Shown piece by piece: positions 1-20,545 of a stretch of DNA of 64,000 nt. Each line of letters starts with the position of its first letter. The stretch's first letter is position 1. Source of the DNA: Thelephora terrestris (Eukaryota; Basidiomycota; Agaricomycetes; Thelephorales; Thelephoraceae). The stretch is from NCBI GenBank assembly GCA_015956445.1, contig WIUZ02000001.1:3162001-3226000 (forward strand), written 5' to 3'. The position numbers and the translations under genes were made by a program. Below the pieces are notes generated by a model. The model was not told the origin of the DNA. It made no database searches and saw only the letters and a list, made by a program, of their open reading frames with translations.

Positions 1-115
1 GTGGCTGGTCATGTCAATGATCAAAGGGCTCCTAGTCAAAGAGTTCCACGGCTTACAGGGCATTTGTGGCGCTTTGATAGCGGCGGCGATGGCTTTCCTT
101 TGATCAAGCGTCTGG

Positions 116-121
116 TATAAA
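116..121 (+). promoter_or_regulatory. TATA box upstream of the coiled-coil gene
   Basis: A TATAAA hexamer lies about 112 bases before the ATG at 233. The three pseudokinase genes have similar elements at similar distances. Assigned by sequence and position only. Confidence 0.4.
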
Positions 122-232
122 TGGACCCGGATTTCCAATGGCCCTAGACCCAGCAACCAATTCCTCACAGCTTTATTCTACGTCTCTGGCACTCAGCGAC
201 GCTCCCCTCTACGCTCTTACCGAACTCTCGGA

Positions 233-1244
233 ATGTCTTCTTCCTCTGTCACTGCTCCCTCTTCTAGCGCCACATCTAAAACCGTTTGCTCGGAAGAGGT
301 CACGAATCAGGTTCTCACGAGCGTGATTCATGAACTCCAAGCTCAGTTAACCTCCATATGCCATCGCCAAGACGAGTTGGAGGAGCTCATCCTCGATCTG
401 CAACGCGAATTAAAGACGCGCATTGGACCGTGAGTTCAAGCCCCAATTCTCAGTGTCGAATATCAACAAATTGATTCATAGAACCATTCACGCCCCTGCA
501 ACTGTTTCCCATTCCGCCCCGGAACCTGGCCCCTCTACTGTTCCCGAGGAGGCAGACACTGACCCTGTAGCCTGCGATTCGGCACCCCCATCCAGTCAAG
601 GCGTGGGATCGGCCGTGGTGCATCCGACTCGCAAGCCAGGTCATCTCACTCCCGCTCCCGAGCGGCTGATCAGGAGGCAAAACGCGTTCTACCACATCTC
701 GGACGCGGAAGTCCCCCCCTGGAAGATCCCCGGAGGCTACTACCCCTACCATTATAGTACAGACCCTACTTTCGGCAGAATCACGCCTGAGCAGCCAGCA
801 TCCGCACCCCCTGTGTCCCTTCACCCTCCAATTGTACAGCATCGCGCATTGGACCCCCGTAACGGGCGTGATACCTTACCCTCACCAGACTCGCCCTCCC
901 TATCACCGCTCCCACCTCCCCAAGAATTCCAGTCCCTTTCCTCCGAGACCAGGGGTATATTTACTGAGGCGCCTGCTACCTTCGGGACCCTCACCACTCA
1001 ACCTGCGTCCACCCCACGCACACACCTACTTCGCGGGGAAAGTGCATTCAGTTACGCATCGCGGCTCTCTCAACCCCAATTTGTAGCCCCTGGCCACAGT
1101 AACCTCCAATCACCTCCCCACCCCCTGACACTAACATCTAACACACCAGCAGTCCCCACTTCATCACCGAAGCGCAAACGGGAAGATGCCGAGCATGGCG
1201 ACGAGGCTTCGGACAAGAAGCGCACCCGGTCACCCCTCCGCTGA
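233..1244 (+). CDS. coiled-coil / Pro-Ser-rich protein of unknown function
   Basis: Two exons join in frame: 233-429 and 482-1244, separated by a 52-base intron (GTGAGT donor, CATAG acceptor), giving 319 residues. Residues 20-60 have a heptad-like pattern (VIHELQAQL, ELEELILDLQREL), suggesting a short coiled coil. The rest is disordered and rich in Pro, Ser and Thr. The tail contains a basic KRKRED/KKRTRSP stretch that could be a nuclear localisation signal. I recognise no family. The start is the first ATG that opens the coiled-coil frame; an ATG at 138 lies in another frame. Its last 60 bases were copied downstream (about 6408-6470) by a tandem duplication, so this gene marks the left edge of the duplicated unit. 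A DNA-binding or scaffolding role would be a guess. Confidence 0.6.
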
Positions 1245-3559
1245 TGATGACGACTAGTCGCAGTGGTTTCACAGGTTGGCATGGATCGAAGCAAGGTTTT
1301 AATCGCTTGCCTCCCAAAGAGTCGTTATAAATTATACCGAGTCAATATGCATTGGCGTTAACGGCAATTGCCGAACGACGAGTATGGGCAGGCAATAACC
1401 ACGAGGTGGACAAATAAAAATTTCACTTCTCTCACCAGTTCCACTCGATCTCAATAATATTGTGCTCCTTTTTCGAGTCGCCAGCTACTGCAAGGTCCGT
1501 ACATTTGTCTGCCTCGCCCACCACACGCTCTTCCCACGAGCCTCCAAAGCTTGCGCTGCCACATCAACTGGCAGTGCTGATGGACTCCTCCACCACTGCA
1601 TTTCTCATCCACGACTTTCGTGTTGCTGCGGCCTCACCTTGACCACAAGGAAAACGGCACCCAGATATCATCGGCGAAACGCGAAAGGTTGCAGGTTCTG
1701 AAACGCCGCTAGAGAGATGCGCGAAATGCATGGGGGGTCGATTCCTGCTAGCACCACCTTCTTCCTCGTTCCCCCCCTTAAACGAATCAATTGACCTTGT
1801 GCTATGGGTGCGTAACACACGCTCCTTTGGCCATTAAGTTCCGATAACTCGCGACAAAGGCGACGAACACACGCATTTGCTGCTTGGAACTGAGGCACCC
1901 GCCCATACTATGAGCGTTTCAGCTCGTCCTCTTGCAGCCCTAGGACACATCGCGTTGGTCTAATGCTCGACGCGATCTGCGAATATCCCAACTTCTCGAG
2001 GTATATATCCCGGGAGATACGGAACTTGTCCCAGTGCACACGACCCATTTCGAGCGATCTCCACTGGCCAGTGCTTTGTACTGATCCCAATTCTTTCGGT
2101 TCCACCATTTCTCGATGCCTTCGAATGCCATCTTCTCGTGCGCTCTTGCAGTTTCTTCTCGTCAGTGGATTTCCCCTGCTCTGATGAAGATCTAATCTGT
2201 ATTTTGTCAGCGCCTCTCGGATGCTAAACGGCGCTTTGGTATCTAATCTTTACCCCCCGAGAACGGGGCCAGGTGGGGCTGGTACCAATGGGTATCTCCT
2301 TTTGGACTTAGCGTGGACGATCTGAAAAGATTGTAGAAGGGTATGTCACTACGTGGTCCTCGGAAGGCGCTTGACCTCTGCACTGGCGTGTTTCACCTCC
2401 TGTCGGCAATCGCTTTACTATGAGAAGGTAAACTTCGGACGACTTGTCTTTCGCTAAGGACAGTACCGAACGGGATTATCAGCCTGGCTCTGCTCATCGG
2501 TATCGATCTTCAAGCATGGAGGGTCAAGCTAGGGATCTCGGCCGGGGGTCAGCGTATGGAAGTTGAACATTTGGGCACTCCCTCCCCTTCAACCTCGATT
2601 AATTCGAGTAGCGACTTTGATAGGCACTGGGTGACTATCCGTAGGATTTACACACTGTAAACTCGAATCCAGACGAATATTCATGGAATCATAAGGAAGG
2701 TGGAGGGACCCCGACCGCTTCGTTGGGTCAGGAACCCCGCAAAACTCGGTAACTGGCACCCTTCTACGACAGATATTATAATATCTAATGCTACGGATAG
2801 CCACCCACTTTCAATCAGGGCAATTAACCCGATAGACGAATACTTAATTTCCATTTTAATGACCATCGCGGGATGACCGAAGCTCTAACTCTGAGAAGGT
2901 ACCGAACATCTTGGAGCTCAAGTATTGGAAGCCCTTCACCTTTGTGCGAAATCGTAACATTCGAGAACGCGAAGCCCAGCTTACTCGGAGGGTGAGCGCA
3001 CAGCAAAATGAGGCCCTGTACAACTTTTTGTTGCCAGTGCAGCCCCGTGGTGGTGTCTAGGGTGTTAATATCAGTTTATAAACCCCATGTGACTTCCAGG
3101 AATCAATAACTAAGAGAACTCACAGGGATATAGCACAGTGATCCAATTAACTGAATTGACTGACGATTACGAATGACCTTCGTCACTACACGTGACGTGC
3201 GCATTCACTGCCAGACGTTTTTTAGCGGCTCGATGAGTGTTAGTTCACATTCATTAGAAATGAATGCTCCTTGCGAACGATGTCGCATGCAACTAGTCAG
3301 GCCGGGCTCCTCGGAACCCAGAGATGAAAGACGAGACGGATGATAACGATTTTTGGGGAACTACTGTTGACGGTCACCCTGTCCACGGTCACCCTGCGTG
3401 CTGCAGCAGTTATCTTATCACGTACAAGATTGCGTACAATTTTTACAGGAATAATTGGATTGGAGCCTGAGCTTGCTATAGGAAGAGAGTATCGGCTTTT
3501 ACGATACAAGCATTCCCCTCCCCCGCTCTCCCTGAATCTGAGGCTGGAATATTCCAGCC
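1245..3559. other. intergenic, homologous to 6.47-8.4 kb; possible minus-strand gene remnant
   Basis: No intact gene is visible. On the minus strand, 1908-2131 reads plausibly as protein (GIEKWWNRKNWDQY, then HWDKFRISRDIYLEKLGY in another frame). The matching part of copy B (about 7250-7450, minus) keeps parts of it. This may be the remnant of an unknown gene, or a small gene with introns. I do not recognise the family. Confidence 0.3.
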
Positions 3560-3567
3560 TATATAAG
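3560..3567 (+). promoter_or_regulatory. TATA box of pseudokinase 1
   Basis: TATATAAG lies about 124 bases before the ATG at 3691. The same octamer or a one-base variant lies upstream of the other two pseudokinases (9808-9816 and, on the minus strand, 16289-16296), so the promoter core was copied with the genes. Confidence 0.5.
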
Positions 3568-3690
3568 CCAATGACTCAACCGAGTCAGATGGTCGATCAC
3601 CTAAATCCCCCCTCCTCAATCTGCCCTGACCGTACGACGCCTAACTCATATCTCAACGCGATTCAACGCTGGTTTTCAGCCACAGCTATC

Positions 3691-4971
3691 ATGGATAGCA
3701 GTCCAACTTCCCGTGTTACTTTATTGTCTAGAATGAAACGTCTCCTACCAAGTCGCCGCTTCCGCTTCTTTTTTCCAGGTGCAAGACAGTCGGCGATCGC
3801 CCAGTCCACCATCCCTCCCCCACCTCGATATACAACAGCTTCCACCGCCCGCCCTGAAGTCACCCAGCATAATGCTCAGAGCTACCACGAGTTGGCCCAA
3901 CGTCTTCAGAGACTCTCACCCCCCGAATCCAACTGGTATGGCCCGGGGAGCGTTCAAATCGTTGACGCGGCGCCGTTCGCTTCCGGGGGTTTCTCCGACG
4001 TGTGGAAAGGGACATTCCAGAATCGAACCGTCGCGGTCAAGTCCCTCCGATGCTACTCCTCTCCAGAATTCGATCCGGCTGAGGTCGGCATCGTAAGTCT
4101 TTCTCGCTCCCTAAGATCGGAGCATCATTAACGGCGTACGAAGCGGTTCCTCAAAGAGTTGTGGGCGTCTGACAAACTTTCAAATCCTAATTTCGTCCGT
4201 TTCCTCGGCGTATACTCTACCCCCACCCATCCGTTCGCCCTTATCTACGAAATGATGGACAACGCGGACCTTGGCCAATATATAGCGCAACACCCTACCA
4301 CCAGCAGGCTGAAGCTTGTAAGCACGGTCATTCGATGCCAGCAGCGATTCCTCTGTTGAACCCCTTCTTCCCAGCTGACTGATATTTCACGTGCACTGGA
4401 ATATATGCACGGCCAAGACATCACCCATGGGAACGTCAAGTCGGTACGTCTTCTCATCTCGTACACCACCACAACCTATTCACTCTCTTGCAGAAGAACG
4501 TTCTCGTCGACGGCGACAATGTCGCTCGCCTTGGCGGTTTGGGTTCTGCCTTCGCGCTCTCCCTTCCTGCAAGCTGGTCCGATGTCGAGTCGCAGAGGTT
4601 GTTTTGTGGCTTCGCTCCTGAGCTCATCGATCCAGATGCCTTTGGGCTCGTTCACGCGCGCGCTACGAAGGCGACGGACATGTTCGCATTTGGCATGCTC
4701 GCCTGGGAGGTAAGCACAATCTTTCTCCTGCTCCCCAGTCTTGATTTACTGGTTTTGGTCTCAGGTCTTTGCTGGTAAACATCCGTTCGCAGGAAATGTC
4801 GAGGCCGCAGGAATATTTTCTCTGTTTCGGAACAACCGGCCTCCGCGTCCTGTTCACCCCGAAATGACGGATCGCGTGTGGAACATGATCGAAAGCTGCT
4901 GGAACCAAGACCCGTTCAAAAGGATGACTGCTGCGGATGTCGTTGACGTCCTCGAGGCAGAGTTGTTCTAG
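3691..4971 (+). CDS. protein pseudokinase 1
   Basis: Five exons (3691-4092, 4144-4317, 4375-4443, 4494-4709, 4765-4971) join in frame to 355 residues. A basic N-terminus is followed by a kinase fold. The glycine loop is degenerate (FASGGFSDVWKG). The ATP-anchoring Lys is kept (VAVK, about residue 117). The hydrophobic core reads FLGVYSTPTHPFALIYEMM, and later FAPELID and FGMLAWEVFAGKHPF match the APE and F-helix regions. The catalytic loop reads HGNVKSKN instead of HRDxxxxN, so the catalytic Asp is Asn (about residue 212). The DFG motif reads GLG, so the metal-binding Asp is missing (about residue 230). Phosphotransfer is therefore unlikely; a scaffold or regulatory role is the natural inference. 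All splice sites are intact, so the gene looks expressed rather than decayed. It belongs to the tyrosine-kinase-like families common in agaricomycetes. Confidence 0.85.
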
Positions 4972-6276
4972 GAAACCACCAACCACAGTCTATGAACGTT
5001 CGCGAACCCGTGCACGCGGGCGCCGGAGCCTGGCACCAGTTCTTGAAGCTTGATAGCTTCCCTGCATCGGCTCGGTATCGATATCAAGTACCGGTCCGTT
5101 AATAGGCCCTGGCTGGCCATTCCCTTGTCTTCCCCCTCGGTTACCCGCTCTGTGAGCGCTATTTAGCCCAGACCCTGTATGTACCGTAAAATATGTATTT
5201 ATCTAGCCTGTATTTATCTAGCCTGTATCTATCTGCTATCCTATATGTACCGCTTATCTATTCACCTATCCTCGGTGTAGCTTATTCCCTGTATTCGCTG
5301 GCGAAATTTATATATTACCATTACTTGTTAATATTCCCTAAGGCTGAAACGAAGGGCTCTCGCGATCAAACGTTGGCCTGGTCCTTTTGCGGATTTGTAC
5401 CGACCGCCCATGTGATGCACCATGCGTTGCCTCAGGCCCGATGGGCTGCCCCGACCTTGCACCTCCTACGTGCGCTTTTGTTCAACCGAGAACCTTGAGA
5501 AGCACATTTCGACCGACAATCCGTTGGAAACGGCGCTTATGATCTAAGGGGTGCGAAGAAACCTTGCAGGCAAGGCAGTCCCTGGCAATCCTCACGCTTT
5601 TCTCAAGGCGTGCGCGCGTATCACTGATAATGGGAATTTTACAGAAAGATGGACATTGTGAAGTGGAATTCAATTGCGAGTTGTGGGAATAGCAAGGTAG
5701 ACGCAGGTACGAAACGAGCAAAAGGACGAAGTTATGTGAACTGAACTCCGTCGGGGTTCATTACTTCGTATAGCGCCTGTTGGCAGCCGTTGGCGCTAAT
5801 CGTTTCTTACTCGGCTCATTAAGGAACGTGGTCGTCACGCGTCATCAGGTGCGTTCCGTGACGTTATGTGAAATGATGTGAAGCCAAAATTAATTCCGTA
5901 ATGGTGACGTTGACGTGACGCCGGCCCGAGTAGCGGAATCATGTGGCTTGGGCTGTGAATACAGAGGATCCCCCCGGGGACGTGTGCAGGTGCAACGCTG
6001 CCCCCTCCGGTAACCCTGGCTCGCAGCTCGTCTTCTAGCGCACAAGCGCTGCGACCGGGACCAGCCGGGTCAATTTGAAAGACCAGTACGTGTCGTCTGT
6101 TGGCTCGGTCATGTCGTGCCCCTCATACTAAGCCTTTTTCTCGGTCGTTGTTTGCGAATACGAACGGAAGATACTCAAACCGTTATAGACTCATTGAGTG
6201 CCAAAAACGTCTAAACAAACCCTTTGGAATATTTCGACATCACTTCGACGTTCAAAGATGAATCAATCAGTCATCT
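4972..6276. other. intergenic 3' flank of pseudokinase 1
   Basis: Apart from the short repeat at 5196-5236, no gene is seen. Parts match the 3' flank of pseudokinase 2 (11236-12000). The last few hundred bases correspond to the region downstream of Rab11 on the minus strand. Confidence 0.5.
5196..5236. repeat. 15-bp tandem repeat
   Basis: The unit TATTTATCTAGCCTG occurs twice exactly (5196-5210, 5211-5225), followed by a degenerate third copy. It lies about 225 bases beyond the stop of pseudokinase 1. Confidence 0.7.
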
Positions 6277-6402
6277 CTAACAGCACCCATCGGACCGTTT
6301 GGTCCTGGGATCGACACTCGCGCTCACTGCAATCGTGTCACCAGTCGGCGACTCCGACTCGCTCGATCGGTTCTGACGACTGTCTTGAAGAATTGTTGCA
6401 GG
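6277..6402 (-). pseudogene. truncated Rab11 3' end
   Basis: Read on the minus strand, this encodes the last ~40 residues of a Rab11-type GTPase: a variable Ser-rich tail with PTGDTIAVSASVDPR and a prenylation-type Cys-Cys end before a TAG stop. It is the diverged counterpart of the last exon of the intact gene (12001-12117). Everything upstream (P-loop, switch regions, NKxD, ETSA) is absent because the sequence changes into the coiled-coil gene copy at about 6405. There is no start or promoter for this fragment. Confidence 0.8.
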
Positions 6403-6407
6403 GATCG

Positions 6408-6470
6408 GATGCAGAAGATGGCGATGAGGCCTCGGACAGGAAGTGCACTCGGTTGTTCCTCCGCTGATGA
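6408..6470 (+). pseudogene. truncated 3' end of the coiled-coil gene
   Basis: The end of this segment, DGDEASDRKCTRLFLR before the stop, is a diverged copy of the C-terminus of the gene at 233-1244 (HGDEASDKKRTRSPLR). It starts abruptly next to the Rab11 fragment. Together the two fragments mark the join of the two tandem copies. Confidence 0.75.
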
Positions 6471-9400
6471 TGTCGACCGGTCGCAGTGGCTTTACAGGTT
6501 GACATCACCAAAGCGTGTCTTTAGTCCATTACCTCTCAAAGAGTCGTCGTCGGTAATTGGGTCAATTCACATCAGCTCCATCGGCGGTAGCCGGGTGACT
6601 CACCAGTGGCAGGAGGTGGCAGGCCGTAGCCACGAGGCCCCAAGAAATCAACAACTTCTCTCTCTCTGCTTCCACTCGATTCTCATCAGCATAGGCTATC
6701 TTTCGCGTTCCAAGCTGAGGCTCGCACAACTTTTTGCCTTGCTGTCACATGCTCGTCCCACGAGGTCCCACATCAACAGAGGCAGTGCTGGGGGACCCTT
6801 GCACCGGTTTCTTGATCATCGCATTCCACGAACTTCAGTTGCTGCTTCCACACTTCCAGCGCAAGGAAAACGGCACCCGTACAGCCAAGTGAAAGGCGAA
6901 ACGATACGGTTTTCGAAACACCGTTTGAGATATGTGCGGGATGCACGGGGGGGGGGGGGGGGGGGGGGGGGTCGATTCTGGTCACTGGTCAGCAAGTCCT
7001 TCGTCCCCCTTCCTTCTTCTCCTCTAACAGATCAATTAACCCTGCGCTGTAGGTGCTGGGCACAGACGCCTTTGGTCATTAAGTTTCGATAACTCACGAG
7101 AAAGACGACTCACACGCATTTGCAGTTTGAACTGTAACAGAAACTGGAGGAGCTGGAGAAACCCGCCCAAACCGGGGATGTTTCAGCTCGTTCCCATACG
7201 CTTCCAGGACGCGTCGAGTCGGTTCAAGGTCCGCTTATCTGTGAACATTCCAACTTCCCGGGACGTATATCTCGGAAGATGCGACATTCACACCAGCACA
7301 CGATTGTTTCTGCGTCGTCTTCACAGCCCAATGTTCCCAACCCTTTCTGTCTCTGGTCCTACTGCTTCTCGATGTCTTCACAAGAATCACCTTATCGTGC
7401 CCCCTGCGGCTCTCGGTCGCCAGTATGTTCTCTTCCTGTACCAATGAGGATATCAGATTAAATATTCTATTAGCGCCTCCGAGGCGCTGAATAGTGATTT
7501 GGTGCTTCATTTCTGCTCTGACCTGAGAACGGGAAGAGGCGAACGGCAGGCGTGGCGTCTTCATGTCGGTATTGATAGGCGTTACCATTCCGACTGACCA
7601 TGGAGGATTGCAGTCGGGGTATGGGTCACTCTACGTGGGCGTCGTCGAAGGGTCTCGACCTCCTCCTCGGCGTGTTTCGACCCCGTCCCCAATGTGTTTC
7701 CGGTATCGCTCCAAGGATCGAAGATCAAGCCGTTGACCTCGATCAAGTGTGACCGTATGGAAGGTGGAACGTTCAGGCCCCAAAAGGTATCTCGATTAAC
7801 CCGATGAGTGGCGGTGGTAGCCATTTTCCATCAGCGTAAGTCAATAGACAGTGTCGAACTTCCATTCCACAGAACACTGCGGGATGAGGTCACAAGCGAG
7901 CACCGGGCGTCCTGGGCTGAGGTATCGCGAGCCCTTCATCCTCGACGTGAAACCGTAACGGGCCAGCACGCCGAGTCCGTTCCGAGAGCACGATAAAGTG
8001 AGACGTTTGTAGGGTATCTTGGCTGTTAGCGATTGACATATCTACCACGTGTAGATTCTGGAAGTCAACGCCGAGATTAAATCCCGCAAGGTTCGAGTCG
8101 TGGAGGGATTTGCTGCACAATGATCATGTCACTCAATTCAGTCGAATATTGAAAACGGCGATTGCGCACTTGACCTTCGTCACGGTTCTGGAAGAAAGAG
8201 CACAAATGCGAGAACGTTGTGATTTGTGGAGAATAGAAAACTGCTGCTCTTGCTTTATCCTAAATACAAAAAAAAATCGGCGATCAAGTGGTCCTGAACC
8301 GTTTGGCCGCCGAGCCACAACAACTCCAAATTTTGTTCGGACGTTGAGGTGAAAGGGCATCCTGTGTACCTTTGTAGAGAGGTCCTATGAGAATATTATC
8401 ATATCACCTGGACATAACTAATTTATCCTGGAAATTGCGCAACACGTGATTCTCTTGCGGCTAGCTGTAGCCTGTACACAATCTGTCCATCAGCAAAGAC
8501 ACCACAAATAATGTGGAAGCTTGGAGATGTCGCACCCCTAATTTCTGCATCGTTGGGGACGAGGGAGGGAGCAATGTGTAACACAGCGTTACATGAGGGA
8601 ACAAACAGTGCAGCCGTTCGGAGCCGTTTCATGTGTGGGAAATTCCTGTGACAATGTGACGATTGGCGTGACTCACCTTCCGAATGCGGTAGCTCGCTGC
8701 TCAGCGCGGTTCCTGTTCTACGTTTTTTAAGTAGAAAATAGAGCTCCGCCACATGAGTATGTATGCAATGGCTGGAAGATACATTGGCCCAAAATTTTCA
8801 GCTCAATGCTCGATATTTACTTGTCGCAAAATTGGGCGAATGACCACTGCCCGATTGCTGCGATGTCATCGTCAACGCAGAACGATAACTTCACACGTTC
8901 TTTGGTCTTACACGCTAACCAGCTCGTCGTTTTCGAGGATGCTTTATGTTTTGCAATGCCCGACCAAGCACCTATCATATTTATCTAGAAAATGAAAGTG
9001 GCACCAAACCCAGAAGGATATGCGGAACAAATAGCTCAAACATCTGGATCGATTCGGCATCGTGCTCGCTGTGTTTTATGTGTCGATCGGTGCGAAACGT
9101 GCTGATTTCGGCAGGTTTGGGAGGAGCCGCCTGAGGGACACGCAAGCTTTACGGGTAGCACATGAGATCTTGAGAGGAACGACGCTGTTGGTGGATTTCA
9201 TTTCGAGCGACTGAATCACTGATATCATAGATGTCGATGAATCGTAATGGGAAAGAACCAAGAAAGGGGCGATAGCATGTTCCAATCCAATTCCGAAGAT
9301 TACGTTTTGGTTCGTGGGTCTCATCGGGCAGGAACCGAGAGAGAGAAAAGGCTGTGAAAGGCCACGGCGAAGAGTTCGAGCGGCTGATAGAGATTTGGCG

Positions 9401-9807
9401 TGCAATCTAAGCGAGAAACGCCTTGGAGAGGTACCGGGCGTTAGTGAGCGAGAGTAGATCCAAGCCAAAAGGACCAACGAATCATCCTGACATCCTTCCG
9501 ATCTGAAACCGAAAGATCGACCGACGGGCTGGAGATGAAACTTCTGGAGCCCTCGAGGCATACCCCGTGTCAATTGTACTTGAACACTCCACACTGATCC
9601 GGCCAGCGGCTGCTAGTCACGCCGTGGTGCTCGGAAAGATCAAACGAAGTCCGAACTGCATGGTAATTTTTCTTGAGGGAACGCGGTCCTGAACGTTGAA
9701 CGCCAGACGTGGTACCGCAGTTGTTTCATCAGGTACAACGTCTGCGGGGAGGATAGTAGGGTTAAATGGCATACTCGCGGCGAGGGAGAGAGGTTCAGTA
9801 CTTAGCG
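6471..9807. other. intergenic of copy B, with about 1 kb not matched in copy A
   Basis: No intact gene is recognised. 6.5-8.3 kb follows copy A. About 8.4-9.6 kb has no counterpart there, and part of it (8.56-8.70 kb) weakly resembles 14.39-14.56 kb. A 172-codon open frame on the minus strand (9076-9594) has no recognisable domain and no supporting splice pattern; I do not call it a gene. Confidence 0.4.
6947..6971 (+). repeat. G25 homopolymer
   Basis: Twenty-five consecutive G occur between ATGCAC and TCGATTC. The corresponding site of copy A (near 1733) has only six G in the same flanks, so the run expanded after the duplication or was shortened in copy A. Runs like this are mutable and may form G-quadruplexes. 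The exact length may also carry sequencing error. Confidence 0.9.
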
Positions 9808-9816
9808 TATATAAAT
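9808..9816 (+). promoter_or_regulatory. TATA box of pseudokinase 2
   Basis: TATATAAAT lies about 111-119 bases before the ATG at 9927, at the place equivalent to the TATATAAG of pseudokinase 1. Confidence 0.5.
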
Positions 9817-9926
9817 CCAGCCACTCACAACTTATCCACAATCCATCTTTCCCTCTTCAACCCGTTCTACCTGACAACCCCCTTATTATTTTTTCTAACT
9901 TTGTTCAGCACTGGATTTGCTGTACC

Positions 9927-11235
9927 ATGTCTGGCACATCCTTCAGTAGTACTTTTCTCTCGAGGATGAAAAGACTCCTACCCAGTCCCTTGTTCCGACT
10001 CTTTCTTCGACGCAGCGGAAAGAGATCGAAGGCCCGAAGTGGCAAAGGGCCGATCGCACAGGCCGTCAGCGCTTCCCCGCCCCCATCTCCCACCAATTCT
10101 ACCTCTTTCTCGGCCGTCCGCAATGACTCTCAAAGCCACTACGAGCTAGCTCAACGTCTCCAGAAGCTCTCACCCCCGGATCTCAATTGGTATGGCTCGG
10201 ATGTCGTTCAAATCGTTGGCGCGGCGCCTTTCGCTTCTGGGGGCTCCGCCGACGTATGGAAAGGGTGGTTCCAAGATAGGCCTGTCGCGGTCAAGGATCT
10301 CAGATGTTACTCATCTTCCGAGTTTGATCCAGCTGAAATTGGCATAGTAAGTTTTCTTCGCTCCCTGCGACCAGGTCATCGTTAACGGCGTACGAAGAGG
10401 TTCCTCAAGGAGGTGTGGGCGTCTACCAACCTTTCTCACCCCAACGTCGTTCCTATCCTCGGCGTGTACTCCAGCCCTGCCCACCCATTTGCTCTTGTTT
10501 ACGAAATGATGGAGAACGTGGACCTTCGCCAGCACCTGGCGCAACAGCCTGCCATCAGCAGGCTGAAGTTTGTAAGCACGGACTTTATGTACAATACCGG
10601 CGGCGAATCCTCGATTGAGCCCTTCCCTCCAGCTCGCCGAAATATCCCGTGCATTGAAACACCTCCACGGCCTAGATATCACTCACGGGAATATCAAGTT
10701 GGTGCGTCTTCCCATCTTACACACCACCACAACATACTCACCCTCTTACAGCGGAACCTCCTCGTCGACAGCAACCATGTCGCTCGCCTTGGCGGTTTTG
10801 GCTCAGCCTTTTCGCTTTCTCTCCCCGCTAGCTGGTCCGATGTAGAATCGGAGAGGTTGTTTGGCGGGATAGCTCCTGAGCTCATCGATCCACGTGCCTT
10901 TGGTTTCGTCGAAGCACGCGACACGAAGGCCACGGATATGTTTTCGTTTGGTATGCTCGCTTGGGAGGTAAGCATTGTGTCTTTCCGCCTCCCAGTGTCT
11001 AGGAATTTATCTGCTCTTGTGCCCGTTTCAGGTCCTCGTTGGTAGGCCACCGTTCGCCGGACAGTCCGATGCTGCAGTAATCCTTTCCGTGTTTCGGAAC
11101 AACCGACCACCGCGGCCTGTTCATCCTGAAGTGACGGATCGCGTTTGGAACATGATTGAGCGGTGCTGGAACAAAGACCCGTTCAACAGGATGAGTGCTG
11201 CGGAGGTCGTTGACATCCTCGAGGCCGAGTTATAG
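9927..11235 (+). CDS. protein pseudokinase 2
   Basis: Five exons (9927-10346, 10398-10571, 10633-10701, 10752-10967, 11032-11235) give 360 residues. Exons 2-4 have exactly the same lengths as in pseudokinase 1 (174, 69 and 216 bases). The glycine loop is FASGGSADVWKG. The anchoring Lys is kept in VAVKDL. The catalytic loop is HGNIKLRN, with Asn for the catalytic Asp, and the DFG position reads GFG. APELID, the helix F region (FSFGMLAWEV) and the C-lobe end (WNMIERCWNKDPFNRMSA) are intact. The open frame and conserved splice sites after substantial divergence from copy 1 suggest selection to keep a non-catalytic protein. It is the middle member of the family, in the copy of the unit that keeps the full Rab11 gene on its 3' side. 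Confidence 0.85.
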
Positions 11236-12000
11236 AAGCCCTCCAGCAGTGGCAATCTATCGACCCCAGCGTACGTGAGCTGGTGCTCGTGCTTGGATCT
11301 TGACGGCTTCCCTGCACCGGCTCGGCATTGAATACCGGTCCGTAAACACGACCTGGTCGCCCTGGTGGTGTTAACCAGCAGCCGTAACCTCCTCCTTATC
11401 GTTCCACGTATGTATGGTCACCCTAACTGTAACCTTATCTATCTCCTCGATTACCTGTTCTGCGAGCCTCCTTTATTCCAGGTGCTATCTGTATCCATGT
11501 GTCCTTCCATCCTCTATGTAGCGTGTATCCTCTAGGCCCTAAAGTATATCCGCCCTGTTTATCGACTATTATTATCATTATATTTTATTACTTGTTCCAA
11601 AAGGCGTGGCCATCATCGTGTCCATTCTGTAATGTGACGCACAGGTAGGAAAGTTAATGACGGTGCATATAACGGCTGTAACGGTCCGAGCGGTGAAGAA
11701 TCCCCTCAGACGTGCCCTCCGGAAACCTTGGTTTTCAACTAGGACTCTGGCGCGTAGACGCCGAAATGATAATGCGATCGTGGCAAGTAACTCTGCGACC
11801 TGCCGACCTAACCGAGTTAATCTTGAGGGACCGGGACCTGTTGTCTGTTCGCACGGTTGTGCCGTGTCCGTTTTTCGTGCATGCAAAGTACTGGATTCAT
11901 TATAGACCCGTCAAGTGTCAAAAAACATGTAAACAAAGCTTGTCAAACAAGGTTGGATAGTTCGGTATCACATCAACGTCAAAAGATGAACCAGCCATCT
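11236..12000. other. intergenic between convergent pseudokinase 2 and Rab11
   Basis: This must hold both 3' ends, since the two genes converge. It shows patchy similarity to 4972-6276. No gene is seen. Confidence 0.5.
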
Positions 12001-13094
12001 CTAACAGCACCCACCGGACTGCTTGGTCCTGGGATCGACGCTCGAGCTCACCGTAATCGTGTCACCAGTCGACGGTTTGATCGGTTCTGAAGACTGTTCC
12101 AAAGATTTGCTGGAGACGATTCGGTAGATGTCTGGAGAAGATGTCAGAAACATTTCCAGCACACGAACGCGTAAGACGAACCGGCTAGGATAGTTTGGAA
12201 TGCAGATTCGACGTTTGAGGCGTCCAGGGCAGAAGTTTCAATGAACGAAAGGTCGTTCTCAGCTGTCGAAGGAAGAAACGAGTGTTACTTACGGGTGTAA
12301 GGAAGAACGGTTCTACATACCTGCAAATGCTTTTGCCTCTTCCGTCGGAACCGCACGCAGATGTTTCAAGTCGCTCTTGTTCCCGACCAACATGATGATG
12401 ATGTTGGCGTCAGCGTGGTCTCTCAGTTCTTTGAGCCATCGAGTTACGTTGGCATATGTCGAATGTTTCGCGATGTCGTATACGAGTAGCGCCCCGACCG
12501 CCCCGCGGTAGTAGCTGCGCAGTCAACATCAACTTTTGGTGAGCCTTAATGAGCTCAATCATTTTGTTTCAATGGATCGCACGTACGCGGAAGTGATCGC
12601 ACGGTACCGTTCTTGGCCGGCTATTGTGGGTTACAGATGAGTCGACGAGCAAGCGTGGAACGGGCAGAGAATTCGCGTCACGCGCGACTTGCCTGTATCC
12701 CAGATCTGCGCTTTGATGGTCTTGTCGTCGATTGCCAACGTCCTGGTGGCAAACTCTACACCAATGGTCGACTTGGAATCCAGGTTGAACTCGTTCCGGG
12801 TAAACCTCGACAGAACTACGCGGATGAAACGTTTGAGACGTATGGCCTCTACGACCACAAAGGTCGTTTGAACGTACGGTTTCTGTTGACGGGTTTGTGA
12901 TCTCGTCAGTACGCTCGAACGATCCACGAGTTCCCAGGTGTGGCACGCACGATTTCCCGACACCAGAATCACCAATCAGAACGACCTGTCATAGTAGGTT
13001 TCGGGTTACGAGTCCGCTTCCGTTTCCACGTTCTCTGGCAGGTAACATACAGACGGACCTTGAAGAGGAAATCAAAGTTGCTGCCTTCGGCCAT
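12001..13094 (-). CDS. RAB11: Rab11-family small GTPase
   Basis: This gene encodes a recycling-endosome/trans-Golgi Rab acting in polarised exocytosis. Reading the minus strand, the exons give [12 protein letters not shown], then the P-loop [33 protein letters not shown] (switch I), [15 protein letters not shown] (switch II), [27 protein letters not shown] (base specificity), then [21 protein letters not shown] and a C-terminal Cys-Cys for geranylgeranylation, followed by TAG at 12001. The closeness of these motifs identifies Rab11 (Ypt31/Ypt3 in yeasts) rather than another Rab. The join between GKS and LSRF is not clean: no GT-AG pair gives the expected GKSNLLSRF. Either a noncanonical site, a few extra residues or a sequence error is present. 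The gene converges on pseudokinase 2, and its last exon was copied to 6277-6402. Confidence 0.88.
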
Positions 13095-13811
13095 GGATGC
13101 GTATTTCGAAACGAGGAAAGGTGATAATTTATGGAGTGAAAGGTTGCGGAACGCTCGTACGGTGTTGAGGATGTGAGGTCGGTTCGCCATTTCAGACTCC
13201 GCCTTCTTCCGTTCACTCGGCTATTACTCTTCCAGTCCATCACTCTCATGGTGAGCCGCTGCATATCGCAATGGCCATACTTATTTTTCATGATTCCACC
13301 GACTGTTCAGTGAGCGCGAGAGCTGTAATATCTCTCAACGATGCCCCAGAACATTGTAATAATCCACGAATAGGTGAACATATCATGAAGGCATATATGC
13401 GCGGACAGGACGAATCGCACTTGGAGCTTGAAGGGCGATCTATCTCTGGTAAAAATGCCGGAGAACGTTAACGCCCTTTCGCGGCCTGGAACGAGGGGGG
13501 ATTTCCAGAGATGCATTAGCCGACCACAATATTATCGGCTTGGAGGGTGCATGCCAACACGGAGCCCACTCGCAGTGCTTTCCCCGACCACTCTAGCCCA
13601 TGGCCTCTGCGAAAGCGTCATTCACCCAACGATGGCGTTCATGACATATGCGGAATTTGTATGTTGCGACTACGCAGTCTTGAGGCGGCTTTCCCCATAT
13701 GCCGACGCCTCTGCTAAGCTGACGTTTCACATGCACCGAAGTGGATTGCCACAAACGATCCGTCAGTTTTCGGAAACCCATGGGAGCCCCCCGATGGCCT
13801 AATATTCAATA
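13095..13811. other. intergenic, 5' of Rab11
   Basis: This should include the Rab11 promoter. About 13354-13400 has weak similarity to 17.3-17.4 kb (ATGAAGGCA..TATGCGCG), which would fit a shared upstream flank of the two aldo-keto reductase copies. No gene is recognised. Confidence 0.35.
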
Positions 13812-14189
13812 GAATTGGCCGAAAATCCACAGCAACAACGGATCTGAGGTAATCGTTCGACGGTTCGTAACGTCACCTCAGATACCTCTCTGTCATGCGA
13901 GTGCTGATTGTTCTCAGCGTCGAGGAGGTTGCCAAGAAAAAGATATGAACGTGGCTCAGGTCGCCCTCGCTTGGAGCCTCAGGCGGGTTACCGCTCCGAT
14001 TGTCGAGACATCTAAAATTCAGAACCTGAAGGAGATGATTGGTCAGTGGGGATGTGTGTGAACAGATTATCCGTTGGGGTGCTCATTGGGATTGCATCGG
14101 AGGCGATCGACGTCACCGAACTTCCGGAGGAAGAGGCTAAGCACTTGGAAGAACCGTACTCGCCAAACGCCGTCTCGGGACACAACTAA
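13812..14189 (+). pseudogene. truncated aldo-keto reductase 3' end
   Basis: This matches the last three exons of the complete gene at 18097-19898, with introns kept in place. It includes a segment equivalent to GKNGSEAVVGR, then VEEVAKKK..MNVAQVALAWSLRRVTAPIV, then EAIDVTELPEEEAKHLEEP..GHN and a TAA stop. The frame is broken inside the VEEVAKKK exon (AAAAAGATATGA), where a few bases are missing relative to the complete copy. The N-terminal two thirds, with the catalytic tetrad, are absent. It is therefore a non-functional duplicate fragment. Confidence 0.8.
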
Positions 14190-14818
14190 CCAACGCTTGG
14201 AGCCTATCAAAACCTGATTCATTGGCCCGAGAGCAGTAGTGTACGTATTCCGCGGTGAGAATAAACTTATGTGTATTTACGATTTACTAGATGGAATCAG
14301 TACCTTACGTGCACAAGCACAGACTGAATGAAGTCTTAGGCGAGGTACGTTCCAACCGCGCGAACAGACGACACAACCTAGCCTCATGAGGAGCGTTGAA
14401 GAAATGGCAGCGGAGCCGTTAAAATGTGGGAAACCCTGTGAAATTGCAACCAGGTTTTGCAGCCGAACGGCAGCCGTGGCGGCCTGGGCTGGTAGTTGCA
14501 GCTTGGTGGTTGAGCTTTTCTGTGCGGCCCGTGCAATCGAGTTTGTCGACCACGCACCGCACATGCGGCTCAGAGTCTTTCTGTCGCCCGAGTTTTCCGA
14601 ACCCTGATGAGGGAACCGTCGAGACGCCGATCGTTCTGTCTGGAGGTACGTAGAGAACACGAGGTATAGGATGGATAAAATACACGTTTTACCGATACAC
14701 ATAGCATCTAGGAAAACAGGGCAGAATGAATGGACGAGGAGGAGGCGGATAGGATTCTAGTTAAAGTGACCATACGTAAAAGTTTGTGTTAGCGACCTGT
14801 GGAACGATAAGGAATGGG
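14190..14818. other. intergenic between AKR fragment and pseudokinase 3
   Basis: No gene is recognised. A stretch near 14.39-14.56 kb weakly resembles 8.56-8.70 kb, within the extra sequence of duplication copy B. Confidence 0.35.
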
Positions 14819-16114
14819 TTACGGCTGTGACCGCCACCGGGGCGCCTTCGCGGACAGCTCATTATCGAAGACATCAACGACCTCTGCAGCAGTCATCCTG
14901 TTAAGAGGGTCTTTGTCCCAGCATCTCTCAATCACGTTCCACACGCGGTCCGTCACTTCAGGGTGAACTGGCCGCGGTGGTCGGTCGTTGCGGAACACGG
15001 AAAGGATTACTGCAGCCTCGATGTTCCCATCGAACGGAAGTTTACCGGCGAGGACCTGAGGCCGACACAAGTAGATGACTACCTCGACATTAGGAAGCAG
15101 AGAAGATGAGGCTTACCTCCCAGGCGAGCATACCAAACGCAAACATGTCTGTCGCCTTCGTAGCGCGCGCGTCGGCGAACCCAAAGGCATGCGGATCGAT
15201 GAGCTCAGGAGCTATCCCGGAAAACAACCTCGAGTCTGACTCTACATCGGACCAGCTAGCTGGGAGGGAGACCGCAAAAGAAGAGCCTAAACCACCGAGG
15301 CGAGCGACATCGTTTGTGTCGACGAGGACGTTCCTCTGGAAGAGAGTGAACTTGTTGTGGCGATAGTGTACGAGATATGAAGACATACCAATTTGATGTT
15401 CCTATGGGTGATGTCGAGCCTGTGCATGTGTTCTAACGCCCGTGAGATTTCTATGAGCTGGGCAGAAGGGCTCAATCGGGGAATCGCCGCTGATATGGTA
15501 CATAAAGACCGGGCTCACAAGCTTCAGCCTGCTAATACCCGGGTGCTGCGCTAGGTGGCGGCTAATATCCACGTTGACCATCATTTCGTAAATAAGAGCA
15601 AAGGGGTGGGTAGGGGTGGAGTACACGCCAAGAAACGGGACGAAATTAGGGTGCGAGAGTTTGCTGGATGCCCATACCTCCTTGTAGAAGACCTTTGTAC
15701 GCCGTTAATAAGGCTCTCAGGTTCACAGGTGGTGGGACGACTTACAATGCCGACCTTAGCTGGATCGAACTCGGGAGAAGAATAACATCGGAGGGACTTG
15801 ACCGCAACAGGCCGACCTTGGAGTGTCCCTTTCCATACCTCAGAGAAGCCCCCAGAAGCAAATGGCTGCGTGTCAACGATTTGAATGTCGCCCGAGCCTA
15901 ACCGATTGAGACCTGGGGGTAAAACCTTCTGGAGACGTTGGGCCAACTCGTAGTAGCTTTTAGAGTCATTCCAGATGGCTTCGGAGGGGAAGATAGAGCC
16001 GGTTGTAGATGAATGTTGGGAAGATGTGGCAAGCTGGGTGACCGGCATCCCTTTGGCACCTGAAGCCTCTGGTCTCCTCGCGCTACGTTGGAGAAAGAGA
16101 AAGAGCTTTTTCAT
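14819..16114 (-). CDS. protein pseudokinase 3 (inverted paralog)
   Basis: Five exons on the minus strand correspond to those of pseudokinases 1 and 2. The glycine loop is FASGGFSEVWKG and the anchoring Lys is kept in VAVKSL. The catalytic loop is HRNIKL..RN, so Arg is present but the catalytic Asp is again Asn. The DFG site is GLG. APELID and FAFGMLAWEV follow, and the protein ends with an extra tail (SAKAPRWRSQP). The first in-frame ATG is at 16114 (MKKLFLF). The paralogs begin 13-15 residues earlier, and here that stretch (STPYNVTLLSR) is open but has no ATG, so the original start seems lost and translation would begin at the internal Met. The kinase domain itself is uninterrupted. Orientation is opposite to the other two, and a minisatellite lies just upstream. 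Confidence 0.8.
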
Positions 16115-16288
16115 TCTCGAGAGCAAGGTGACGTTGTAAGGCGTGCTGGAAATAGCTAGGGAAAACCTGGGCCAAAACACAGGGTTGAGTTGAGTTCAGC
16201 GATGGGGAGGACGCTGTCCAGTGGGAGAGACTGAAGTGGGGAGAAGGAGACTTCTCGATAGAGCGTGGGTCTCTGACTTGATAAGCCA

Positions 16289-16296
16289 CTTATATA
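16289..16296 (-). promoter_or_regulatory. TATA box of pseudokinase 3
   Basis: TATATAAG on the minus strand lies about 175 bases before the internal ATG. It matches the elements of the two paralogs and lies just inside the start of the minisatellite region. Confidence 0.45.
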
Positions 16297-16369
16297 CTAG
16301 GCGACACAACCCTCAATTTTTTACTTCTCCTTGAGTAATTTTGTGCTATCAACCTCAAGTGGGATAGAA

Positions 16370-16862
16370 CCGGTGGTGAGGGCAGGGAGAAGATGTGTTG
16401 GGTGGCAGGTTCTCGACTTCATGGTATGCAGCGATGTGCGTGGAAATTTGGGGTAGTATGGAATAAAAAGGGAACGTGCGTGTGACCGGTTTCCCACCTT
16501 AGGTTATGCGGTTACGCGCCCAGACAATCGAGATAGAACCATGGTGGTGAGCATAGACAAGGAGCATGTTTTGTGGCAGGTTTTCGGCCCCAGGTACGTG
16601 CGGTTATATCAACAGAAGTTCGAAATGGAACTTTGGTACTGAGCGTAAGAAAGTCAACGTGTCTGTCGTCAGGTTTTCGACTCTAGGGTACGCAATCAAG
16701 CGCATAGAAATTCGAGATAGAACCATGGTGGTGAGGGCGAGAAAGGAACGTGTTGAATGGCAGGTTTCGCGCTTCAGAGTATGCGATTATGCGGATAGAA
16801 CTTCCAGATGGAACCACGGTGGTGAGGGTAGAAAAGAGAACGTGTTGAGTGGCAGGATGCGC
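16370..16862. repeat. minisatellite, about 90-bp unit, about six copies
   Basis: Degenerate direct repeats carry a core like GAGATAGAACCATGGTGG followed by ACGTGTTGAGTGGCAGG and TTATGCGGTTACGC. Core landmarks occur near 16395, 16473, 16565, 16658, 16748 and 16838, spaced about 78-93 bases apart. Because 90 is a multiple of three, one frame stays open across the later units. I take this as a by-product rather than a gene. Confidence 0.75.
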
Positions 16863-18096
16863 GCAGGAGCCACGGGGTCGATCCCTCAAAGCGTATCCGA
16901 TTCCGAATCGGCCTGGACATTTGATCAATTGACTCGGCGGATCAATCGATCACCCCTCTGGGCCCCACCAAATCCAATAAGGATCGTACCGCTGATCGGT
17001 GGCAAGAACGGGTACTAGCGCCTGTGCCTGATATGCATAATTGGATTCTTGTCTGAGGGAGAACGTCGTTCAACAACGGCTGCTAGGAGGGGATGGGAAA
17101 GGCATGTCGGTCCACACCTGTACCATGTCCGTCGACGGACCCCTTGAAGCGAAAACTCGGGCCTGTTGACTTCGTGAGCGATAGGCTGGTTCGTATCCCA
17201 TGCGCTCATACATCTTTTTGTACATACAGGTCCGCTTCGGACTTCGCCTTGTTGTTACGGCTCAGCGAGTGACCGTTCCCTGTCATCACTTGAAAAAATG
17301 AAGTGTGATTACACGAGTGCATAGCGCGACTATGAAGGCACTTATGCGCGTGGCTGGTGTCAGAAAAGGAAGTTTGTCACAGTTATGACATGAGTTGTAA
17401 TCGGAAATTTGGGGGTCTTCGAAACCGAAGTTTGTACCCCGCCGAGAGACGAGGTTCCGTCCTGTTTGGTGATGCTACCGTTGCATGTCCGCACTTGGCG
17501 GCAGCTTGGTGCGGAGTCAGAATTTTTGGATCGCATGACTGGTGGAACCACACCTCAAAACCTGTCCAAGTCGTTGTTCTCCGCCTTTCGTTGTGAAATC
17601 GTTGTGGAGTTATGGGCCAGTTTAAACAATGCAGGAATCGGACGGCATCCGCCGGTGATGTCGCCCGAGCTTCGCGCCACCCGTGAGATAATAATATTGA
17701 TAGCTGAGTGGGTTTATACCTCACGTCCTCCGATTATGCAGTCTTGCCCCACACGGCAGCATGGTAATACTTATTTTCCGTAGTGCCCTCATCTCTCGAG
17801 TCACGCGTCCCCCCTGACGACCACCAAGGATCAGCTGCAATCAGACCCACCTTGATTCCGCTCAAGGAAGCTGAGTGAGGAATAGCCCCGGGATGAGTAA
17901 ACTTTAAAGCCGTCGCCCACCTCTTCCTCGGATTTGATTTTTTTCTATATCTGCCGAGTGTACGCGAGTCCCAGATGTGGGTCAGCACCAGGATCAGGAG
18001 TGGGTCTCCAGTCTCCGGAACCCTATAAAACCAGCAGCGCGAACGGCTGGTACAAGTCAACAAATTCGCCACCCAACTCATCACACAGTTTGAAGG
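16863..18096. other. intergenic, 5' of the aldo-keto reductase
   Basis: No gene is recognised on either strand; the short open frames here are without known motifs or splice support. The segment near 17.3-17.4 kb weakly matches the flank of the truncated AKR copy. Confidence 0.4.
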
Positions 18097-19898
18097 ATGT
18101 CCACCACCAACGACACTAGCGTAGTCACCCCGAAGGCCGGGAAATACGGTAGCCACGAAAAAACTCGATCTCTTGTCACCTCTGCTGAACCCATGTCCAA
18201 CCTTTACAGTGCGACTTGGAAATTCTGGGCTGAAAGTTAGCCGAATCATCTTGGGTCCGTTTCGCATGTCTAGGCGAATCTTTTGGTAATACTGATCGGC
18301 GGCGTACGGTACGCGATTCCAGGTTGCATGAGCTATGGCTCTACCAAATGGCAAGGATGGCTGTTGGGTGAGAAAGAGGGAATGGAGCATATCAAGTTTG
18401 CGTGAGTGCTATGTTCCTACTCGCCAATTGTTGGGTCTATTCATATTCACCTCCATCGTGATCAGGTACGAAAACGGTATCAACACTTTTGACACGGCCA
18501 ACACATACTCTAACGGAGAATCGGAGCGTATCCTGGGGAAGGCGCTCAAGGAATACAAAATCCCTAGGGAAAAGGTTGTCATCATGACTAAGGTATGGCT
18601 TCTCTGACCCATCGTGCCTCTATCGCTCGCTCACGAAGTGCAACGCAAGGTATTCTTCCCCGTTCCGGACGAAGAGGGCCCAACTCCCCTGGCGGGAGCG
18701 GACGATCTTGGCTACGTCAACCGCCACGGACTCTCCCGCAAGGTGAGCCTACAATCTACTCGTGAATTGACGGGTTCGCTTAACGCTGCCCTAGCACATC
18801 TTCGCGGCGGTTAAAGACAGCTTGGAAAGACTGGACCTCGAGTACGTCGACGTCTTGCAATGCCACAGGTATTATTTGTTTGTCCGCGGTGCTTTCGAAG
18901 ACCCGTGGTGACCTCTAATGAAAGGTTCGACCCAGAAACACCGATCGAGGAGACTGTGTGTCCCTCTTCACCTCCCTCCCTTCGTCACTGGCTCTGATGG
19001 TGTTGACCTAGATGCAAACTCTCCACGACGTCGTCAAAGCGGGATATGCTCGGTATATCGGCATGAGCAGCTGCTACGCATGGCAATGTGCGTCTTAACC
19101 CCCATCTTTCTCCTTGGCCGGTTACTAATGATCCACGTCACAGTCTTTGCAATGCAGAGTGAGCACCGCGCAATACCGCACGATTCAGTGATTGACCATC
19201 TTCCACAGGCTATGCGATAGCGCACAACCTCACCCCGTTCATCTCCATGCAGAACCACCACAGTTTGTTGTACAGGGAGGAAGAGCGCGAGATGCTCCCG
19301 CTCCTCAAGGTATGTCCTGGTCCTTCTCCACACAGGCACACTCACCCTATATCAACTGGTGCTCATCCTCGATCATTAGCACCTTGGCGTGGGATGCATC
19401 CCGTGGAGTCCCTTAGCGAGAGGCATGCTAACTCGCCCATGGGACGAGGCCAGCGCGCGCTCGGAGACCGATGGGTAAGCTTGTAAAGTCCCCTTGAAGA
19501 ATCGCAGAATCCAATCTTCCGTAGTTGGGGTAAAATTTACGTGGGCAAAAATGGGTCCGAAGCAGTCGTTGGACGGTTCGTGACTTTACTAAATATCCTT
19601 ATTTGCCAAATGAGTGCTTATCTGCCCTTAGCGTTGAGGAGTTGGCCAAAAAGAAGGGCGTGAAGATGGCTCAGATCGCCACCGCTTGGAGTCTCAAGCG
19701 AGTCACCGCTCCGATCGTTGGGACGACAAAGCTCCGGAACTTGATAGAGATTATTGGTGAGTCGGATAAGCTGTGAAGGATCCACTCTTCGGAATACTGA
19801 CCAGGACTGCAGAGGCTCTCGACATTGAACTTACGGAGGAAGAGGTCAAATACTTGGAAGAACCGTACCTTCCCGTCCCTGTCTTGGGCCATAATTAA
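18097..19898 (+). CDS. aldo-keto reductase (NADPH-dependent, AKR superfamily)
   Basis: About 11 exons with GT-AG introns of 50-70 bases. The reading starts MSTTNDTSVVTPKAGKY, then RLGNSGLKVSRIILGCMSYG, then the catalytic residues: Asp and Tyr in FDTANTYSNG, Lys in VVIMTK, His in LQCHRFD. Later come GYARYIGMSSCYAWQ, MQNHHSLLYREEEREM, GVGCIPWSPLARGML (NADPH side), KMAQIATAWSLKR and APIVGTTKLRNL, then EEEVKYLEEPY and TAA. This is a full-length (alpha/beta)8 barrel of the YajO / K-channel-beta-like branch, about 350 residues, reducing carbonyl substrates in the cytosol. The substrate cannot be told. An earlier partial copy of its 3' end lies at 13812-14189. No operon-like partners are evident. 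Confidence 0.88.
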
Positions 19899-20002
19899 CC
19901 GGCGGAGCATCCACCATCGTCATCGCTGACTGCCATCGACATCAAGAGACTATACGATCTGATCGCAGTTGAAATGTATAACTCATGAGGAGAAATAAAT
20001 TG

Positions 20003-20245
20003 TCATGAATTCACCTTGTGTTCATCATGAAATAGCGGACGTGGGAAGTGTCTCACCTTGGCGTATGTAGTCAGACGGTGACTCTTGAAATTGACCTTCT
20101 CCACGACCTTTCTCCCAAACCCACTCGTTTTCCATTCTGGCGGAGGCAAAGATTCGGGGTGATCTTCCATCGCGAGCCGAAAGTTCTTGAAAGTCTGAAC
20201 GAGGCGAATCACCATGAATGACGCCTCGTTGTTATCGGCTTTGAG
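20003..20245 (-). pseudogene. cytochrome P450 C-terminal fragment
   Basis: The minus-strand reading NEASFMVIRLVQTFKNF, then PPPEWKTSGFGRKVVEKV and KSHRLTTYAKV, matches the last ~60 residues of fungal P450s after the haem-binding Cys loop. The haem Cys motif, the I-helix and the rest are missing. Immediately upstream the sequence becomes low-complexity Ser and then a DUF1479 fragment, so this is a broken chimera. Confidence 0.55.
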
Positions 20246-20369
20246 GGTCCAGTTGTGAAACTCAACAGTTGATGACGAGATCCACGTTTGGCTGTTGGTA
20301 TATGATACCTCGGATGAAGACGAAGATGAGTCTTCACATGTCATAGAGAGAGCTCGTCCTCGACCTCGG

Positions 20370-20545
20370 GACGCTTGTGTAGAACTCGCAGTGCCCGATA
20401 CCTGGTTCCCAATCACCAGCCTCCAGCAAGGCTTTGCGACCAGGCTCAGGTTTGAGGGAATACCTCAGCACGAGAGACGCAGCGGAAAGCCCGAGAAATG
20501 GCACCACACGAAACGCGCCCTTTTTTATGCCCCTGTTCCAGGCTC
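20370..20545 (-). pseudogene. DUF1479 fragment (partial duplicate)
   Basis: The plus-strand stretch with GGTTCCCAATCACCAGC and then AGGCTTTGCGACCAGGCTC matches the coding part of the complete DUF1479 gene near 22310-22470. On the minus strand this is the WEPDLEHGEF region, here reading WEPGIGHCEFY before a stop. It lies next to the P450 fragment. Both are small and cannot encode a functional protein. Confidence 0.6.

Follow-up and report, generated by a model that had tools for sequence, protein, structure and literature searches.

The window (the whole 64,000-nt stretch of DNA analysed, C1:3162001-3226000) belongs to a 40.6-Mb genome assembled in 60 contigs. The kinase family and the shortness of the introns point to a filamentous fungus, probably a basidiomycete. 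Near its left end lie a gene that the preliminary description had given the putative label 'coiled-coil', three kinase-like genes and an intact Rab11 gene. Between the first two kinases, broken 3' ends of a Rab11 gene and of the 'coiled-coil' gene meet at a joint. The following features were assigned, with the basis of each in brackets.

233-1244, plus strand: full 'coiled-coil' parent gene at the left break point, 319 aa, with an intron at ~430-481, both read by eye (open frame by reading)
1185-6401, plus strand: copy 1, comprising the coiled-coil gene 3' end, kinase 1 and the Rab11 3' stub (collinear blastn blocks, sharp ends)
2628-2807, plus strand: MITE-like dispersed repeat of 180 bp with inverted ends TGGGTG...CACCCA, in copy 1 only (blastn gap, genome matches)
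3691-4971, plus strand: kinase 1, predicted pseudokinase of 5 exons and 355 aa, with HGN at HRD and GLG at DFG (PF07714/PF00069)
6049-6276, minus strand: 3' flank of the Rab11 stub, collinear with 11793-12000 (blastn block)
6277-6401, minus strand: Rab11 3' stub of 125 nt, with its own stop codon at 6277-6279 (alignment to parent)
6402-6407, no strand: joint, a few bases without certain assignment to either side (break-point alignment)
6408-6467, plus strand: coiled-coil gene 3' stub, the last 19 codons and the stop (alignment to parent)
6408-12115, plus strand: copy 2 of the duplicated segment (collinear blastn blocks, sharp ends)
9927-11235, plus strand: kinase 2, predicted pseudokinase of 360 aa with the same four introns, HGN and GFG (PF07714/PF00069, alignment to a solved kinase)
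12001-13094, minus strand: intact parent Rab11 at the right break point, 212 aa in 8 predicted exons (spliced by script)
14819-16114, minus strand: kinase 3, an inverted paralogue with HRN and GLG, whose short flanks weakly resemble those of kinases 1 and 2 (codon comparison, PF07714/PF00069)

With the first 20 kb as query and the whole window as target, BLAST paired 1185-1892 with 6408-7134, 3875-4964 with 10129-11231, 5039-5112 with 11289-11356 and 6183-6401 with 11900-12115; every pair lay on the plus strand and the order was kept. A sensitive blastn run of one half against the other, with the dust filter off, gave same-strand blocks at 1185-2410 and 6408-7693 (E 8.7e-97), 2498-2626 and 7701-7823 (E 6e-7), 2805-2977 and 7821-7978 (E 6e-7), 3610-5112 and 9851-11356 (E 0.0), 5123-5183 and 11433-11493 (E 6e-4), and 6049-6401 and 11793-12115 (E 1.4e-36), together with a weaker one at 3293-3427 and 9613-9738 (E 0.005). 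Two more pieces on the same order, at 5223-5258 (E 1.8) and 6003-6041 (E 0.24), were each non-significant alone, and three off-order pieces were at chance level (E 0.66 to 4.8). As controls, we compared 12 other pairs of neighbouring segments, equal in size and drawn from 16001-60000, overlapping one another and run with the dust filter on; one of the 12 had a match at E <= 1e-6, a single piece of 177 columns. These results confirmed that 1185-6401 and 6408-12115 are copies of each other, side by side and identically oriented, a segment of ~5 kb having probably been duplicated in tandem long ago.

Homology began abruptly at 1185/6408 and ended abruptly at 6401/12115, and beyond both points similarity fell to chance level. 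When local scores were compared for the 200 bases inside and the 200 bases outside each end, the inner stretches scored 79 and 88 and the outer ones 8 and 9, as judged against 200 letter shuffles each (mean ~9, maxima 14-15). The preliminary description had expected a single break near 6405 between collinear segments, and the comparison gave exactly one, from 6401 to 6408; the position it had named for that break, ~6402/6408, was correct to about one base, as homology stops at 6401 and restarts at 6408. At E <= 0.001, a search of all 40.6 Mb with window 6200-6600 returned three matches, namely the sequence itself and the two parents, and no fourth.

Microhomology at the joint was considered and rejected: the longest common word within 15 nt of both break points was 5 nt, a length that 803 of 2000 random pairs reached or exceeded. 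A short original homology could be masked, the parents having diverged. An 89-codon plus-strand frame with a GTG start (6198-6467) crosses the joint, running antisense to the Rab11 stub and then into the coiled-coil gene's own frame and stop. We also rejected a chimeric gene at this place, since 1-16000 contains 83 frames of 60 aa or more, of which this is one, and it is probably due to chance; that a new small protein or antisense transcript made from it is in use seems to us extremely improbable.

The preliminary description had spoken of two pseudogenes at the joint. The broken copies are real, but they amount to 3' stubs, in which 125 nt and 60 nt were once coding. The Rab11 stub corresponds to the last 115 nt of the parent coding sequence, with a frame-shifting insertion of 10 bp, and 97 of the 115 aligned bases are identical to the parent. 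The parent itself, used as a query with four guessed residues, had Rab-11A as its best match among solved structures (E 7e-92), and matched Ypt31 with E 2e-75. It has GTP-binding motifs and C-terminal cysteines, with a final GGCC.

To polarise the changes, we used a second Rab11 gene, on contig C60, as the outgroup. Among the 115 last-exon columns of stub, parent and outgroup, all three agreed in 55, the outgroup alone differed in 42, the stub alone in 10 and the parent alone in one, and all differed in seven. The excess of stub-only over parent-only changes (10 versus 1; two-sided sign test, p = 0.012) indicated that the Rab11 stub is the decayed copy, and among the three sequences the frame-breaking 10-bp insertion was confined to it.

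The coiled-coil stub matched its parent at 48 of 60 bases; its 19 codons are still open, and the Rab11 stub is the one of the two polarised by an outgroup. The protein of the parent gene at 233-1244 hit no Pfam family at E <= 0.01. A protein search of the genome matched this one gene and revealed no second copy, and a scan of GTDB contigs for relatives gave 273 pattern matches, none of them confirmed.

Non-coding parts of the two copies had ungapped identities of 71.6% and 77.7%, figures inflated by gap placement, and Jukes-Cantor (JC) distances of 0.26 and 0.36. The live-versus-stub distances were lower than these for both Rab11 (JC 0.18) and the coiled-coil gene (JC 0.23), which is expected if one side was constrained and the other decayed freely. 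We considered whether the stubs were unusually conserved and rejected this. The Rab11 stub matched its parent at 41 of 46 bases in each of two bins, yet, judged by the kinase introns (76% identical) and the two non-coding flanks, roughly this degree of similarity is predicted for a single freely decaying branch. Over 1342 sites, the copies differed by 217 transitions and 151 transversions (K2P 0.35); as 64 of the 217 transitions lay in CpG context, CpG decay does not dominate the mutations.

The copies are not collinear throughout, because two interior stretches lack a match. Between 2978-3609 in copy 1 and 7979-9850 in copy 2, the sole similarity was the weak block of 137 columns (E 0.005), and 5259-6002 aligned to 11530-11714 with a local score of 12, inside the shuffle range (mean 10.0, maximum 14). 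Dispersed repeats as the source of these stretches were rejected, since the parts searched (2978-3609, 5259-6002 and 7979-9612) had no long genomic match elsewhere: 7979-9612 had one other match of 83 bases, 5259-6002 had three others of 45 bases, and 2978-3609, as part of the genome query, had none. The 45-bp stretch at 5531-5575 is 87% identical to three other places on three contigs and is a short dispersed element.

One interior difference is the MITE-like repeat at 2628-2807, for which we aligned the window copy with 7 of 11 loci. Its family has at least 50 further genome matches, some of which are parts of a single location; scores were obtained for 40 of the 88 candidates. Opposite the element, the alignment closes up in copy 2 at ~7821-7823; being present in copy 1 only, the element was either inserted after the duplication or precisely lost from copy 2. 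The copies also differ at 6947-6971 in copy 2, a run of 25 G where copy 1 has ~6 G, as counted by eye.

Each copy contains one whole kinase gene. Kinases 1, 2 and 3 share four introns at identical positions, and all three scored above the cut-off for both PF07714 and PF00069. The catalytic Asp of HRD and the metal-binding Asp of DFG are absent from all of them, the motifs reading HGN, HGN and HRN, and GLG, GFG and GLG, in kinases 1, 2 and 3, respectively (readings from translations, kinase 2 being the one aligned to a solved kinase). By their sequences, therefore, the three are pseudokinases. Over 333 codons compared without gaps across all three, synonymous distances (dS, NG86) were 0.75 for kinases 1 and 2, 0.84 for 1 and 3 and 0.68 for 2 and 3, and the corresponding dN values were 0.18, 0.19 and 0.17; by YN00, the dS of kinases 1 and 2 was 0.67. 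Their introns were identical at 132 of 173 aligned bases (76%), with the first 6 and last 3 bases of each intron excluded. The synonymous distance of this pair (0.67-0.75) is about twice the intron and flank distance, a point that fits the proposed history less neatly; gap placement flatters the non-coding figure. Both kinases kept long open frames, which together with a dN of 0.18 against a dS of 0.75 suggests that these two proteins, catalytically dead as judged by their motifs, may still be under selection. When the flanks serve as the yardstick the contrast shrinks, as dN reaches about half to two thirds of the non-coding distance (0.26-0.36).

To place the kinases, we built trees over residues 85-357 of kinase 2 that combined kinases 1-3 with 15 outgroup loci from this genome. 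Stop codons in the outgroup rows were treated as gaps, and the other matches among the at least 135 kinase-like exon-wise matches in the genome (E <= 0.001; 113 of 646 candidates scored) were left out. The trees were run twice, with and without a fourth kinase-like locus on the same contig (L048). Kinases 1-3 grouped together with full support, and their inner order had bootstrap values of 56% and 59%. The flanks of kinase 3 pointed both ways. Its 3' flank scored 24 against kinase 2 (0 of 300 shuffles as high) and 19 against kinase 1 (1 of 300), and its near 5' flank scored 18 against kinase 1 (0 of 300) and 13 against kinase 2 (15 of 300). As the third kinase is also about equidistant from the other two, it would have been copied either at nearly the same time as they were or from one of them. 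The preliminary description held that the duplication explains two of the three kinase-like genes. This is borne out by the long flanks common to kinases 1 and 2, and it is on these flanks, not on the tree, that we attribute the two genes to the duplication; they need not be sisters, kinase 3 being about equidistant.

The fourth locus (kinase 4, C1 near 3,559,900) was rejected as a root for kinases 1-3, being a 3' fragment that clusters with kinase 3 (support 98/100). It is located in a rearranged, inverted segmental copy of window 14810-23583 that lies ~380 kb away, at C1:3555500-3565000. In this copy, an aldo/keto reductase region is 87.5% identical to the window, the kinase 3 3' fragment 84.7% and the region of a Gig2-like gene 79.9%, and the kinase 3 fragment is joined to the aldo/keto reductase region at 15364/17773. 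Judged by identity, the segmental copy would be younger than the tandem duplication.

We propose a history in which an ancestor carried, in this order, one 'coiled-coil'-like gene, one pseudokinase gene and one Rab11 gene. A tandem duplication would then have begun 60 nt inside the coding 3' end of the coiled-coil gene and ended ~115 nt inside the coding 3' end of Rab11, with the intervening segment copied in place, perhaps through break repair or a replication error without long homology. Both outer genes would thereby have retained one full copy and the pseudokinase would have been duplicated whole. The two cut 3' ends, set back to back at the joint, would later have decayed, probably without function. 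The present order, with the coiled-coil gene, a kinase and the Rab11 stub followed by the coiled-coil stub, the second kinase and Rab11, is the one that a single tandem duplication of the segment gives, and we consider such an event the best explanation and a probable one.

The preliminary description had gone further and called this order the exact product of one tandem duplication. The order does fit, but two steps would give a product that looks alike. In that case a larger tandem duplication would have left both outer genes whole, and a deletion that began inside Rab11 of copy 1 and ended inside the coiled-coil gene of copy 2 would then have taken out the first joint and created the present one. 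Because the order and the single visible joint would be identical, the BLAST blocks and break-point scores fit these two steps equally well, and the loss of redundant gene copies through deletion is common. They nevertheless require two events where one suffices, and the genome shows no remnant of a further coiled-coil 5' portion, a weak argument as the deletion would erase that remnant. We therefore regard the two-step course as unlikely.

The neighbourhood also has dispersed copies, such as the inverted one ~380 kb away, so that a copy made elsewhere might have been inserted by chance beside its source. It would have had to land exactly at the edge of that source, in direct orientation and with complementary parts missing, and the sharp break points strongly disfavour this, which makes it very improbable. 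Still less credence is given to an assembly artefact, for example two haplotypes joined end to end, in an assembly of 60 contigs. The ungapped non-coding identities of 71.6% and 77.7% are far from what alleles would be expected to show, and a haplotype join would not cut two genes in complementary fashion. A single tandem duplication is thus the reading that we retain.

Under a single tandem duplication, the origin of a pair of pseudokinase genes can be read from one joint at this locus; the stubs serve as a built-in control for decay and, with the full parents and a genomic outgroup, let the main steps be followed. The locus illustrates gene family growth clearly, though in an ordinary way, and is of use to annotators and to studies of gene birth in this fungus. 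Mushroom-forming fungi have expanded protein-kinase-like families. The many kinase-like stretches in this genome and the supported group of kinases 1-3 resemble that situation; unlike those families, the three form a small local group and are without the catalytic aspartates. The Rab11 parent matches the Rab11 / Ypt31-32 GTPases, and its copy at the joint was reduced to a 3' stub. Among the matches listed, the literature on basidiomycete kinases and duplication held nothing specific to this case.

For Drosophila yakuba, passages of one report (PMC5460883) describe tandem duplications in which genes are cut and their fragments stay at the joint. As in those cases, the direct duplication ends inside two genes, with fragments at the new joint and full copies outside. 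The emphasis in those passages is on 5'-to-3' fusions that give rise to expressed chimeric genes (PMC5460883). Here, in contrast, the cut genes are convergent and their 3' stubs lie back to back with no same-strand fusion, and the duplication appears to be old, not segregating. The mechanism is already well known, and the present case is a fresh example with no new principle.

The stretch 13801-14191, beside kinase 3, is 69% identical to 19513-19900, the 3' part of an aldo/keto reductase gene at ~18.1-19.9 kb, and forms a further broken gene end. The fragment at 20346-20521 is 70% identical to 22261-22435, next to the gene with a Gig2-like domain (PF07350, frame 22547-23107, minus strand), and is perhaps another duplication stub. 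Short degenerate tandem repeats occupy 16347-16864, upstream of kinase 3, the best array having a unit of ~91 bp.

Functional microexons were previously undescribed in filamentous fungi, according to the abstract of a 2024 paper (PMC11121469). The predicted splicing of the window Rab11 gene includes a GC donor after exon 4 and, after the P-loop exon, a 5-nt exon AAACC at 12882-12878 (minus strand) that is seemingly required for the frame (SNLL...). The Rab11 gene on C60 (L049), read by eye, has an equivalent 5-nt exon, AAACT, and both of these small exons are predicted from sequence.
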